A stretch of 64,000 bases of DNA, from the NCBI RefSeq assembly GCF_019391655.1, contig NZ_JAHXPQ010000001.1:372001-436000 (forward strand), given 5' to 3'. The position numbers and the translations under genes are program-made. Numbering within the stretch: the stretch's first letter is position 1; each line of letters opens with the position of its first letter. Positions 48,314-63,815 of this stretch are shown here, piece after piece. The notes under the pieces were generated by a model, which was not told the origin of the DNA, did not search any database, and was given only the letters and a program-made list of their open reading frames with translations. Source of the DNA: Mucilaginibacter rivuli (GTDB lineage: Bacteria; Bacteroidota; Bacteroidia; Sphingobacteriales; Sphingobacteriaceae).

Positions 48314-48393
48314 TTTTCAGCTTATGGTCGGTGTTATCACCGCACCATTTGTAGGGTTGTGGTACGGTGATAACACCGATCACAGGCTGAAAA
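48314..48393. repeat. 80-bp palindromic intergenic element
   Basis: The perfect core arms TCGGTGTTATCACCG (48328-48342) and CGGTGATAACACCGA (48365-48379) are extended by imperfect outer arms starting TTTTCAGC (48314) and ending GCTGAAAA (48393). Each core arm is itself near-palindromic. The loop region contains TTTGTAGGGTTG. It lies between clpP and the rimP promoter and contains no reading frame; a dispersed REP-like repeat is the simplest reading. Confidence 0.6.
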
Positions 48394-53176: not shown

Positions 53177-53622
<446 letters not shown>

Positions 53623-54351
53623 TGAATCGCTCTTCCAGTCGGGCTATTTTGGTGGTTAATTCCTTGTGCTTTTTCTGCAACACGCTATAGCCGTCCTCAT
53701 AGCCCTTGGTAAACTGGTTAAACGTGGCTATGGCTTGCTGTTTGATAAGTTTTAATACGTCCTTACCCACATCGAGTTTCAAGACCTCCAAGACCTCCGC
53801 AAAGCGATTATTTAGCACGTTTGCATTTCGGTTAGTCCCGCATCCGACCGTTGAGCATTTATAGTAATGAATGCCTTTCTTTTTTACCACGTAGCCGTGC
53901 AACATCTGGTCGCACTTGCCACAGCGCAGAAACCGCTTTAGAGGCAGGTGGTCGTTTTCCTCCTGCACCTTGTACCCGTGGGTGTTGTTGTCCATGAGAC
54001 CGTTTACCCGTAAGAACAGTTCCTGGCTTATCAGGGCTTCATGGTTGCCTTTCACTACCGCACCGTCAAGCAAGTTGTGGGCGATGAACCCTGCGTAGAA
54101 AGGATTGCGGAATATATGCGCAAGTTTTTGTTTGTAGAGGGTGATACCGTTTGAAGCAAGCCTTTTAAGGATTGCTTCATTGGAAAGGTGCTCTTCCGCT
54201 TTCCATTCAAACGCACGGCGTAAGAGTTTGCCTCGTTCGTTTATAACGATCGTTCGTTTGCCGTTTTTTCGAATGCTATCATAACCGTACGGTGCAGTGG
54301 TACACCAATCACCTCGCAAAAGCATTTCGCGCATCCCCGCTGTACATTTGC

Positions 54352-54822
54352 TTATGCCAGTTCGTTTTCCCACGTAGAAAAAAGCAGTGTCATGTTAGCG
54401 TGCATTTGCCCTACTGAACTGGTCATATCAATGGGCTGGGTTACGCTCTCCACCAATATATTCAGTTTCTTTAACTCGGCAGTTACGGCGATGGAATGGA
54501 GGTTGCGGGAGAACCTGTCCAAACTGAACACGATGATATGCGATATTTTCTCATGCGACTTTTTCACAAATGAAAGCATGCTTGAAAACTCCTTGCGCTC
54601 GCTGTCGCTGGTTGCCGATTCGTACGTGGCACCAAAGAATTTCACGACATCATAGTTTCTTTTTAGGGCGTATTCGATACAGGCCTTGCGCTGCGTGTCG
54701 AGGCTAAGATTTGTTGCCTGATCCTTAGAACTGACACGGGTGTAAATCACCGCCCTTTTGCCGATGACTGATTGTTCCTTCGCGCCTTTTCCAAAGGCCT
54801 TTAAGATGGTTGCTCCACTCAT
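54352..54822 (-). pseudogene. Serine recombinase, N-terminal resolvase fragment
   Basis: A 156-aa resolvase domain: AVIYTRVSSKDQATNLSLDT contains the catalytic Ser (YTRVSS), HIIVFSLDRFSRN holds the conserved Arg pair, and it ends FSTWENELA at a premature TAA. The normal protein would continue into the recombinase domain, for a total of about 530 aa. The N-terminal extension (MSGATILKAFGKGAKEQSVI) is present. Unless frameshifting bridges the gap, the enzyme would be catalytically separated from its DNA-binding part. Confidence 0.82.
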
Positions 54823-59471: not shown

Positions 59472-60662
59472 ATGAATGCAAGAAATCCTAACGGCGATCC
59501 TTATACTGTCAGTTTTCTTATTAACTTAAGAGATAAGATTATCTGGCGATATGGATTAAACAAAAAAGCGGAGAAAGATAATCCTACGTTGCTAATACCT
59601 GACAGTAAAAATAGCCCACACATAAAAAGACTGAAAGAGGATATTAAGATTAGGACTGGTAGAGAAATTTCAACCGGAAGTTTACATAATGCCTTATATC
59701 ATGAAGATAACGATGACAACAGGAAGCTATTAAAGTGGTTAAAAAAGAAGACAATCGATACTCTAAATGATTATATATCTACGGTACACCCTAATGATTC
59801 AACTTTTGAAGAAGCGGGAGAAAACAATTTATTGGGAGCAAAGGAAATTAGCAAAGGGTATAAAAACTATCTTGAAAACAGCACATTGGCATTTTCTCCC
59901 GAAGACTTTTATATATACAAATTACTTGATGACTGCCAATGGTATGGCGTCGCTAAAGGTTGGGATAAGGAAAGAAAACGCCATGGTTTTGCAAAACAAC
60001 AGATATTATTATCTTTTAAGGTGCCAAGCGCAGTATCCATAATTATGAATGGCGATCATGGCTCCGGCAAATCTACTTTCTTAAGGCGACTATGCCTTTC
60101 TATTACTGATTTCGATTTTAAGGTGCTTTGGATAACAGACTTTGTTTATTTTACCGACAAAGAACTGCTGGAACTATCGAAACAAAAAGAAACCAATTAT
60201 ATTCTTTTTGTTGAAGACTGGACTAAATACGCAAAGCACATTATCTCAACCCAATTTTTAGACCGTATCAATAACATCAAAAACGTCAGAGTTGTGATAG
60301 GTGACATATTGAGAACAAATAGGCAGGATTACGAAAATTATCTTAGTTCACCCAAAAATGTAATCACACTTAGAGCCAATGAAAATAAAATCATACTTGA
60401 TCATGTTTTTGGTTATATGAAGACATGGAAGGAAATTTCCGAAAAAACGTTACCAGATGACTTTTTTAAAAGCCAATTATTTATCATTTTATTTGTTTTG
60501 GCTCGTTCTCAATCACAGGACGAAAACGCTTTTAATAAGACTGAACCAGTAGCAGGTCAATTTAGAAAGATTGTTTTTAAAGACTTGAATGTTTTGATGA
60601 ACTTATGTCCAGCTATATGTTTGGGAATTTTTTTTCTACGCATTTTTATATTCAAAACATAA
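59472..60662 (+). CDS. P-loop NTPase, N-terminal and ATPase portion (frame interrupted at an 8-T run)
   Basis: A 396-aa frame. Residues about 1-100 form a helical domain with KRLKEDIKIRTGREISTGSL, a helix-turn-helix or effector-associated-like pattern. Walker A GDHGSGKST lies at residues 194-202, after SIIMN, and ILFVEDWTKY near 255 is a Walker B-like strand. RVVIGDILRTNR may be sensor 1. This resembles a STAND-like ATPase. The last 10 residues (IFFLRIFIFKT) are out of frame: after T8 at 60628-60635, dropping one T would continue IFFYAFLYSKHKV into the next frame (60688-61128). No homology search was run, so family level is tentative. Confidence 0.65.
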   Translation: MNARNPNGDPYTVSFLINLRDKIIWRYGLNKKAEKDNPTLLIPDSKNSPHIKRLKEDIKIRTGREISTGSLHNALYHEDNDDNRKLLKWLKKKTIDTLNDYISTVHPNDSTFEEAGENNLLGAKEISKGYKNYLENSTLAFSPEDFYIYKLLDDCQWYGVAKGWDKERKRHGFAKQQILLSFKVPSAVSIIMNGDHGSGKSTFLRRLCLSITDFDFKVLWITDFVYFTDKELLELSKQKETNYILFVEDWTKYAKHIISTQFLDRINNIKNVRVVIGDILRTNRQDYENYLSSPKNVITLRANENKIILDHVFGYMKTWKEISEKTLPDDFFKSQLFIILFVLARSQSQDENAFNKTEPVAGQFRKIVFKDLNVLMNLCPAICLGIFFLRIFIFKT

Positions 60663-60687
60663 AGTAACAATAAGTCATAACTCGTTT

Positions 60688-61128
60688 TTGTGGCTTGTTC
60701 ACCATGGTTCTCGCACAAAAGAAGAAGGATTAAAATTACAAGATCGATTTAGCAAACCTGACGAGAATGATCCTGTATGGCAAATACTATCTCGCTATAT
60801 ACATTTAAAGTGGGAGGTGCTTTCTAATCGCCGTGACGGATATTTTAGTTGCTTTCATCATGATTTGTTAGTCAGTGAAGGTTTTTTGCCTTATATCGAA
60901 GAAAGAGGCCTACCTCTTGAATCAATAGAGAACAAATTAATTGGGATATTACAACGAGCAGGTGAAATACATTTCTATGATACAAATGATGGGACTGTAA
61001 AATGGGACTGGATGAAGAATTTACGTTGGGGACAAATAATTGGTAATAAATTTGAGGGGATGAATGACGTCCTTAACGCAGCCTTAAAAGCTATGTTTTT
61101 GGATTCTTATGGCCCAATTAAACCCTGA
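60688..61128 (+). pseudogene. P-loop NTPase, C-terminal portion
   Basis: A 146-aa frame (MWLVHHGSRTKEEGLKLQDR onward) that stays open upstream to the T-run at 60628. It encodes the helical C-terminal part (VWQILSRYIHLKWEVLSNRR, YFSCFHHDLLVSEGFLPYIE, and FEGMNDVLNAALKAMFLDSY). Joined to the upstream frame it gives about 551 aa. Its ATG is internal. Whether a single protein is made by slippage at the T-run, or the gene is broken, cannot be told here. Confidence 0.6.
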
Positions 61129-61180
61129 TATTTACAAATTCCAAGCAATTTAGTATACTGCCTGAAATCCTGCAAAATCA

Positions 61181-61237
61181 TGTTGCTAGGTAATTAGAGT
61201 AAAGTCGAGAATTATTTACTCTAATTACCTAACAACA
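61181..61237. repeat. 23-bp inverted repeat before the 190-aa gene
   Basis: The left arm at 61181-61203 begins TGTTGCTAGGTAATTAG, and the right arm at 61215-61237 ends CTAATTACCTAACAACA. The arms are complementary at 22 of 23 positions around an 11-nt loop. The ATG of the next gene is at 61244, six bases after the right arm, so in mRNA a strong hairpin would end just before the start codon. Possibly an operator, a translational lock or a recombinase/relaxase site. Confidence 0.65.
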
Positions 61238-61243
61238 GAAACC

Positions 61244-61816
61244 ATGAAAATAATATCTTTGACTGATGAACAACACACCCATCTAAAGAATCTCCACAAT
61301 GAATTACTAACCTCAAATTCACTTACTATTGCTGATCGAGAATGTATCATTGACTTAATTTCCCCGTTTTTGACTTCAGATAATGTTATTTTCACTAACA
61401 ATGTCCCAGAATTACCACCGCAACAGGATTATACGATAAATGAGCACATAAAGATGTTACTCAGTGATTGGAAAAAATTGTTGCTCAGTTTGCCTGGCTT
61501 CGACTTTTGCCCTACTTGTTATATCGTTAATGATGATGCAAAAGAGTTTTTAGAAAAAAATATAGTTATGATTTCTGAATTTTCTCCAACGATGTCTTTT
61601 AATATGAAAAGAGACAGTGGATTTGAATTGCGTCTAAAAAATGATGGAACAGGAGATTTTTGGTTCCCAACTTTCGAAGATGCAAAACAATATCCCGAAC
61701 TGTACAACTTCAAAGGTTCGTGGAAAGAAGCGTACGACCTCCTTATTGAAACATTGAAAAAAGGCTGGCCGATGGAAGAGTTCCCCGAAGAGCTGTTACC
61801 GCTCTTGAAAAAGTAA
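61244..61816 (+). CDS. Unknown cargo protein, 190 aa
   Basis: A soluble protein with no signal peptide or membrane segment. It begins MKIISLTDEQHTHLKNLHNE, has FDFCPTCYIV (CxxC pair) near residue 88 and ends in an aromatic segment (DGTGDFWFPTFEDAKQYPEL) plus a helical tail. I do not recognise a family. It is flanked by the 23-bp inverted repeat before and a terminator after, so it forms its own transcription unit. With the NTPase it makes up the cargo between the mob arms. Confidence 0.6.
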   Translation: MKIISLTDEQHTHLKNLHNELLTSNSLTIADRECIIDLISPFLTSDNVIFTNNVPELPPQQDYTINEHIKMLLSDWKKLLLSLPGFDFCPTCYIVNDDAKEFLEKNIVMISEFSPTMSFNMKRDSGFELRLKNDGTGDFWFPTFEDAKQYPELYNFKGSWKEAYDLLIETLKKGWPMEEFPEELLPLLKK

Positions 61817-61822
61817 CACCCC

Positions 61823-61853
61823 AAGCACCGATATAAATGTATCGGTGCTTTTT
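61823..61853 (+). terminator. Intrinsic terminator of the cargo gene
   Basis: AAGCACCGATA, loop TAAATG, TATCGGTGCTT followed by TTT. It closes the 190-aa gene. Confidence 0.8.
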
Positions 61854-61886
61854 ATGGATTGGCAAATACATTGAGTAGCTTTAGCT

Positions 61887-62717
61887 ATGGCAATCGTCAA
61901 AATTCTTGCTCGGCACAGTCCCTCCTACACTTCGCTTATCAAATACATTTTGAACGAAGCAAAGGCGGACAAGTTGCAGATGTTTACCAACAATCTGCGT
62001 TCTAATACTGTAGACGAATATGTGAAGGAATTTATCACTAACGAGGCTTTTCGCAAACAATCACGCTCCGACCAAATATACTTGTTCCATGAGATAGTGT
62101 CATTTAGTGCGGTTGAAAACAACACACTCCTTACACCTGAATTGCTCGATGATTTGGCGCACGAATATATGCGGCTGCGTGGTAATACTGGCGTGATGCT
62201 CGGTGCAGTGCATCGAGATAAAGGCCACGTCCATATTCATTTTTGCGTATCAGCCCTACATTTTCGCACAGGCAAATCGTTTGGACTTGGCAAGGCTCAA
62301 TTGTTAGAACTAAAATCATCCTATCAGAAATACCACCAGTTACACTATCCCCAACTTTCAAACAGCGCACCCGCTCATGGCAAGGGTGGACGGTATATGA
62401 GCGACAGGGAACGCCGGGCTAAAATGAGGGAGAGCGTCAAAGAGAGGGTATCGCACTGCCTTTTGGAGGCTAAGTCCCAAAGCCACTTTCTCGAATTGCT
62501 TCGACAGGCAAGCCTGCCTCATTACGAGCGAGGTGCCAAGCCCGCTGGCGTGGAAGTCGAGGGGATAAAATTCAGGTTTTCCCGCATTCTTGAACCCAAC
62601 GTGTTTGAACTGCTGCCAAATGAGCGAAGTGAGGAGCAAAGAGTGCTTTCGGAAATCGCTGCCATCAGAGCCAGGCAGAAAGGGCACGATAGGGATATTG
62701 AGGAAAGGGAGCGGTAA
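61887..62717 (+). CDS. Relaxase / mobilization nuclease
   Basis: A 276-aa MOB relaxase. It nicks the element's oriT and pilots the single strand. Motif III is HRDKGHVHIHF with His114, His116 and His118 (the HUH/HxH metal-binding His residues); the YLFHEIVSFS segment near residue 70 is relaxase motif-like; and the first 20 residues (AIVKILARHSPSYTSLIKYI) contain the candidate nicking Tyr. The C-terminus is charged (RARQKGHDRDIEERER). It is truncated relative to many MOB-P relaxases and has no primase part. MobC-like and T4CP genes are on the far side of the cargo. Confidence 0.82.
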   Translation: MAIVKILARHSPSYTSLIKYILNEAKADKLQMFTNNLRSNTVDEYVKEFITNEAFRKQSRSDQIYLFHEIVSFSAVENNTLLTPELLDDLAHEYMRLRGNTGVMLGAVHRDKGHVHIHFCVSALHFRTGKSFGLGKAQLLELKSSYQKYHQLHYPQLSNSAPAHGKGGRYMSDRERRAKMRESVKERVSHCLLEAKSQSHFLELLRQASLPHYERGAKPAGVEVEGIKFRFSRILEPNVFELLPNERSEEQRVLSEIAAIRARQKGHDRDIEERER

Positions 62718-63722: not shown

Positions 63723-63737
63723 AGTGAGTAGGAGTAG

Positions 63738-63815
63738 CAAGATAGTGTGTCCCTCCGAGACAGATTGGTATCTTGCCTTGTCGTCGGGACACACTATCTT
63801 GCGGGGATATCCCCG
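63738..63815. repeat. 17-bp inverted repeat plus 12-bp palindrome
   Basis: GCAAGATAGTGTGTCCC (63738-63754) and GGGACACACTATCTTGC (63787-63803) are perfectly complementary with a 32-nt loop. Next to them is the perfect palindrome GGGGATATCCCC (63804-63815). A further CCCCT/AGGGG pair lies at 63845-63862. No gene covers this stretch; candidates are oriT, a terminator for the HEPN gene or a replication/transfer signal. Confidence 0.6.

Follow-up and report, generated by a model that had tools for sequence, protein, structure and literature searches.

What does a long, nearly perfect inverted repeat do when it ends only a few nucleotides ahead of a start codon? This question is raised by a locus in a 64,000-nt stretch of DNA from Mucilaginibacter rivuli (contig NZ_JAHXPQ010000001.1, positions 372,001 to 436,000; referred to here as the window). 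The original prediction had offered three options: an RNA hairpin blocking ribosome access to a 190-aa cargo gene, a DNA operator for a dimeric repressor, or a strand-transfer site. Our analysis favours the first of these, leaves the operator as a weaker option and speaks against strand transfer. The parts of the locus that raise the question are the following (positions are those of the window).

61181-61203, plus strand: 5' arm of the leader hairpin (TGTTGCTAGGTAATTAGAGTAAA), with pairing kept across 8-9 leaders
61204-61214, plus strand: 11-nt loop of the leader hairpin, differing in length and sequence among leaders
61215-61237, plus strand: 3' arm of the leader hairpin (TTTACTCTAATTACCTAACAACA), stopping 6 nt 5' of the ATG
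61244-61816, plus strand: 190-aa gene behind the hairpin, with homologues in 7 other genomes and no database match

Results

The inverted repeat is predicted to form a stable hairpin at the start codon

Each arm comprises 23 nt, and the two are complementary at 22 of 23 positions, a C/A pair being the single mismatch. With the ATG of the 190-aa gene at 61244, a gap of 6 nt remains behind the repeat; pairing, loop length and distance to the start codon are thus as originally described. Folding of the leader, which the original prediction had proposed, placed the structure far beyond chance: the RNA from 61160 to 61290 folds with -32.4 kcal/mol (z = -6.7; 0 of 200 shuffles matched), and the hairpin reaches z = -7.8 when folded as single-stranded DNA.

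In a hairpin scan of the whole window, the leader hairpin ranked second behind an inverted repeat with 34-nt arms at 48314-48393, which lies some 130 nt ahead of a rimP-like ORF. The claim that nothing of this strength precedes other genes therefore has to be narrowed: the repeat at 48314-48393 is stronger, but the leader hairpin is the strongest one lying directly against a start codon. The repeat at 48314-48393 has a 12-nt loop, sits between the rimP-like ORF and the preceding gene and is possibly a terminator.

Scattering of the repeat throughout the genome had been named as an outcome that would speak against a specific role. This is not what we found: any other match to the 17-nt arm core in the genome has at least two mismatches, and the counts of weaker matches equal those of the control. 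As the arm is without a second good match, the repeat is not a dispersed REP element in this genome. A screen of positions 60000-62500 against Rfam returned only two chance matches, far under the gathering scores.

The 190-aa gene probably belongs to the backbone of a mobilizable-element family

The 190-aa gene sits within an integrated mobilizable element, of which the following plus-strand features surround the hairpin.

59472-61128, plus strand: nSTAND NTPase gene upstream of the leader (PF25199, E 2.8e-10); an intact nSTAND gene lies at the same place in relatives
61823-61850, plus strand: terminator-like hairpin with a T-run, 3' of the 190-aa gene
61887-62717, plus strand: MobP-type relaxase gene adjoining the 190-aa gene (Pfam PF03432, E 8.9e-15)
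63737-63802, plus strand: inverted repeat GCAAGATAGTGTGTCCC..GGGACACACTATCTTGC, oriT candidate of the element, conserved in sequence and located beyond the relaxase gene

The order on this strand is thus nSTAND NTPase, leader hairpin, 190-aa gene, terminator-like hairpin, relaxase and inverted repeat. Encoded on the minus strand are a serine recombinase (in pieces), a mobC-like gene, a coupling protein of the VirD4/TraG type and two conserved membrane or lipoprotein genes; "mobC-like" here denotes a small gene beside the coupling-protein gene, similar to the one found ahead of the relaxase in other families. The terminator noted originally behind the 190-aa gene was recovered as the terminator-like hairpin with its T-run, and a GC-rich hairpin with a T-run likewise trails the gene in the other Mucilaginibacter elements.

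Two genes of the element are interrupted. The NTPase gene reads as two ORFs with a broken frame (59472-60662 and 60688-61128), which is split at about 60630, beside a run of eight T; we read this homopolymer indel as sequencing error, decay or phase variation, without ranking these. The three ORFs of the serine recombinase (53209-54822, minus strand) match, one after the other, successive stretches of an intact 535-aa relative in genome G013, and we read them as a broken gene or as assembly indels.

The 190-aa gene occurs in eight related mobilizable elements, seven from Mucilaginibacter and one from another family. Among 150 Mucilaginibacter genomes, seven carry the gene, that of the window included, and a close copy of the relaxase is found in exactly these seven and in none of the others; the relaxases of the six other Mucilaginibacter elements are 53-62% identical to that of the window in one comparison and 55-63% in another. 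Since the gene is present in all seven relaxase-carrying genomes and no others, the label "cargo gene" is probably wrong, and the gene is probably a backbone gene of this element family, not random cargo. The one further homologue, in G494 from another family of the same class, has a related relaxase nearby and lies in a different gene arrangement that lacks the NTPase. Extending the search to further genera and families brought up no homologue beyond G494. The C-terminal third of the 190-aa protein is strongly conserved. Searches of Pfam, NCBIfam, PADLOC, PDB, plasmids, phages and viral contigs yielded no match to the protein, domain and profile searches found no RNA-binding domain in it, and a structure model built with two sequences had a mean pLDDT of 45.

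The proximity of the hairpin to the relaxase gene (650 nt) bears on the proposal that it is a strand-transfer or recombination site, namely an oriT, a single-strand origin or an integration site for cargo. A string ATCCTGC, like the nic sites of MobP relaxases, is present at about 61167, which would fit this proposal; the string is, however, not kept in the other leaders, and in G494 and G163 (an ICE-like element described below) the hairpin is placed elsewhere relative to the relaxase or the oriT-like repeat. A far better oriT candidate is the inverted repeat at 63737-63802, which has GGGG-N-CCCC downstream and recurs with the same sequence near the relaxase in six of the seven Mucilaginibacter elements (one half site only), with a variant in G163. 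It is likely the oriT of this element family. Because this repeat is conserved with the relaxase and the sequence of the leader hairpin is not, we rejected the leader hairpin as oriT, and a role in strand transfer in general appears highly improbable.

A promoter-like site resembling the E. coli sigma-70 type precedes the hairpin

Upstream of the hairpin, the best sigma70-type site consists of two boxes.

61131-61136, plus strand: predicted -35-like box TTTACA (site score 10/12, spacing 17)
61154-61159, plus strand: predicted -10-like box TATACT, 17 nt past the -35-like box

The predicted transcription start lies at about 61166, so that the hairpin would fall within the 5'UTR. Together with the terminator-like hairpin after the gene, the promoter-like site makes it most likely that the hairpin is part of the 5'-leader of a monocistronic mRNA. 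An ssDNA promoter of the Frpo-like kind was set aside, since the promoter-like boxes lie outside the stem, which is too short to hold both.

All nine leaders (those of the eight homologues and of the G163 element) have a predicted promoter-like site of the form TTGACA-N16-18-TATAAT-like (TAnnnT), located 102-130 nt before the ATG. The spacing obtained in the scan is 17 in most leaders, 16 in G494 and 18 in G014. These sites score above the upstream regions of 111 other genes from the same loci (p = 2.5e-6), and an exact TTGACA occurs in 6 of 9 leaders compared to 6 of the 111 other genes. No such enrichment over the 111 genes was seen in the leaders for the Bacteroidota-type site, TTTG/TANNTTTG. 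The known primary sigma factor of Bacteroidota prefers TTTG/TANNTTTG, and E. coli promoters are reportedly not recognised by it (PMC6847099). By its letters, the site of the leaders thus resembles the sigma-70 type of E. coli and not the Bacteroidota type; it may serve as a promoter read by another sigma factor, or else as a binding site.

The structure of the hairpin is kept while its sequence changes

All eight homologues of the 190-aa gene are preceded by a strong hairpin whose end lies 0-9 nt from the ATG. Homologues without the repeat, the other outcome that the original prediction had named as a refutation, did not turn up in the related elements searched. The hairpin sequences differ among the elements and the structure is kept. 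When the eight leaders were aligned with MAFFT, the stems fell into register over 19 pairs, with 83.8% of the cells paired, double changes at 11 of 19 pairs and a covariation of 0.398, although a misalignment of the right arm of G494 by about three columns lowers these figures. Sliding one arm by 1-3 columns as a register control reduced pairing to 31-52% and covariation to at most 0.164, and none of 500 shuffles reached as high a value. Correspondingly, the arms of one element pair with each other at a mean energy of -23.1 kcal/mol, compared to -10.9 kcal/mol for arms taken from different elements. In a comparison of 129 ORFs, the leaders of the 190-aa genes gave some of the most extreme folding z-scores.

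The leaders of G023 and G053 (loci L073 and L074) have a second hairpin with the start codon inside it, which competes with the conserved stem and excludes it; in G023 this second hairpin is formed by GGCATTTCGG/CCGAAATATGCC. This arrangement is as in a two-state switch and is not general among the leaders.

Arms that change in step would also be expected of a DNA palindrome bound by a dimer. As an operator, the palindrome would be recognised as double-stranded DNA just past the transcription start by a dimeric or tetrameric regulator from the element itself, which would block or activate transcription, and the arms would co-change since the half-sites fit a diverging regulator. The copy in the window is indeed a near-perfect palindrome on either strand, its one mismatch being A.C and not G.U; it adjoins the promoter-like site, and some related elements carry XRE-type HTH genes. 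However, G.T pairs and the kept G.U position would be mismatches in a DNA palindrome: the innermost stem pair is G.U in 8 of 9 leaders, and G.U outnumbers A.C by 32:10 in strand-neutral scoring, a signal that is modest after correction for composition, which predicts 64% G.U (the observed excess was reached by 1 of 200 shuffles). In addition, seven of eight leaders fold better as the sense strand than as the antisense strand, the exception being the hairpin of the window with a slightly better antisense fold. A dimer would not usually bind half-sites that are separated by 25-50 nt and by variable loops, and the position of the hairpin is tied to the ATG and not to the promoter. We therefore consider an operator unlikely; action at the RNA level is clearly favoured, though not proven.

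A transcribed hairpin could also act on the stability or processing of the mRNA, either by shielding the 5' end or as an RNase III-type cleavage site (about 22 bp); translation would then not be its chief target. The stem lies between a few and about 30 nt from the predicted 5' end and measures about 19-24 bp in several members, its letters drift freely with the pairing kept, and hairpins this stable could equally stabilise an mRNA. Without exception, though, the stem lies right against the ATG, a site that a stabiliser does not need and at which initiation should suffer in this phylum. A role in mRNA stability hence appears decidedly improbable to us, also when set beside the operator.

A ninth hairpin is found in an ICE-like element

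A covariance model built from the eight hairpins was run on the 150 Mucilaginibacter genomes. It recovered the seven known hairpins, and its best new match was in G163 (38.7 bits, per-genome E 2.7e-4; locus L107, G163:C4:33000-51000, hairpin at L107:9118-9187, minus strand). At the right distance, this hairpin is preceded by TTGACA-17-TACACT, and 17 of 19 positions pair in the same register; the other new matches have no promoter-like site. A stretch of the right arm, AAATGGCATTTC-GGTCACT, is common to G163 and G023. The gene pair behind the G163 hairpin is a different one, encoding a 74-aa membrane protein and a 310-aa protein that belongs to no known family. The element is ICE-like: it encodes a TrwB/TraD-like coupling protein, and an oriT-like repeat of the same kind as in the mobilizable elements lies 2 kb from the hairpin. 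With this member included, the nine leaders, which are few and related by descent, show 84% pairing, double changes at 12 of 19 pairs and a covariation of 0.444. The compensatory changes expected of a cis-acting RNA leader were thus seen with eight as well as with nine leaders. A second covariance model that included the promoter found no further convincing member. G163, as a single case, suggests that promoter and hairpin form a portable cassette.

The weaker matches of the model touch on the possibility that the hairpin is an ordinary dispersed REP-like palindrome, or a chance remnant before a gene. Other Mucilaginibacter chromosomes do carry palindromes of the GTCATTAGGTCATT type that score weakly with the model. 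These matches lie between chromosomal genes and lack the promoter-like site, and the genome search had shown the window arm to be unique; moreover, the hairpin is kept in eight of eight homologues. We therefore rejected this reading, which we regard as the least probable of those considered, the weak matches being chromosomal GTCATT-type palindromes without promoter. Long intergenic palindromes of the form GTCATTAGGTCATT..AATGACC were seen at loci L086, L088, L092, L096 and L116-L118 on chromosomes of other Mucilaginibacter species, and form a dispersed repeat family that is apparently missing from the genome of the window.

The stem may hold translation low by default

Translation in Bacteroidota starts without functional Shine-Dalgarno pairing and tolerates little structure around the AUG; the best reading of the hairpin is therefore a cis-acting RNA that holds translation low for as long as the stem stays closed. 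We consider it somewhat more probable than not that the repeat is a conserved cis-acting RNA leader with its own promoter and a stem at the ribosome landing zone, keeping translation low by default. The opening of the region from -20 to +6 is predicted to cost 9-26 kcal/mol in the leaders, compared to a median of 5.5 kcal/mol for 100 other genes (p = 1e-6). Expression in Prevotella bryantii fell to about a fifth when a hairpin of just -5.2 kcal/mol lay in the start region, and one of -9 kcal/mol placed 20 nt upstream was harmless (PMC3155529). In Flavobacterium, the region from -20 to +20 is unstructured, and more so in well translated genes (PMC6847099). Given these data and the predicted opening cost, low default translation of the 190-aa gene would be expected and, by analogy and modelling, is likely. 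Blocking of ribosome access, as in the first option of the original prediction, is accordingly favoured without being proven, on account of the compensatory changes in the stem and its location between the promoter-like box and the ATG.

Mechanistically, a promoter of the TTGACA-N17-TATAAT type (61131-61159) would start a short mRNA of the 190-aa gene, whose 5'UTR would fold into a hairpin of about 19-23 bp stopping 0-9 nt before the AUG and covering the ribosome landing zone. As this phylum lacks working Shine-Dalgarno pairing, the stem would lower default translation, and it may be opened or remodelled by a protein, a small RNA, a ribosome arriving from upstream or another event. Upstream ATG frames exist in only five of the eight leaders and encode unrelated peptides, so that no conserved opening device is visible; a leader peptide or attenuator of the tetQ or erm type was rejected on the same grounds.

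More tentatively, and with a probability that we would put on the low side, promoter and hairpin could together constitute a portable two-lock cassette of Mucilaginibacter mobile elements that is opened in a special state by a trans-acting factor. One lock would be a promoter type that the primary sigma factor of the host is not expected to read well, the other the hairpin blocking the ribosome, and expression would thus be confined to the special state, for example transfer, entry into a new host or phage attack. Such a cassette would be shared by the mobilizable elements and the ICE-like element and stand ahead of different genes.

Discussion

The recurrence of the hairpin suggests a so far undescribed RNA element, either a switch or a brake on protein synthesis. 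To our knowledge, few natural leader RNAs in which structure serves as the brake are known in Bacteroidota, and a covarying hairpin against the start codon, combined with its own type of promoter, provides a compact and testable case in a family of mobilizable elements. Should the cassette indeed be common to an ICE-like element and its probable passengers, it would reveal how the timing of backbone-gene expression is set in elements of this kind. The hairpin also offers a handle on a protein family without database match that travels with a relaxase.

The closest known system is the translational attenuator of tetQ on the Bacteroides element CTnDOT (Wang et al. 2005, cited in PMC5418344). Both cases concern a leader RNA of a Bacteroidota mobile element in which structure at the start region sets translation of the next gene; tetQ differs in that ribosomes are described as stalling on a leader reading frame with the antibiotic as signal. 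In contrast, the leaders described here share no reading frame, and the 190-aa gene is not a resistance gene.

Single-hairpin operators on phage and ribosomal-protein mRNAs are similar in another respect. There, one hairpin at the start codon limits ribosome access and can be bound by a protein, often the product of the gene itself. Likewise, a single hairpin at the start codon would limit ribosome access in the leaders studied here. However, the phage and ribosomal-protein operators keep the sequence of the recognised loop or bulge, whereas here the loop and most letters of the stem change.

A third parallel is the Salmonella genomic island SGI1, which is controlled by the activator AcaCD of its helper plasmid, so that a mobilizable element and a conjugative helper have regulatory signals in common (PMC7826253). 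By analogy, the same promoter and hairpin on elements of the IME type and on an ICE-like element suggest shared regulatory signals in Mucilaginibacter as well. The shared component in SGI1 is a DNA-bound activator, whereas here it would be a promoter-like site together with an RNA hairpin.
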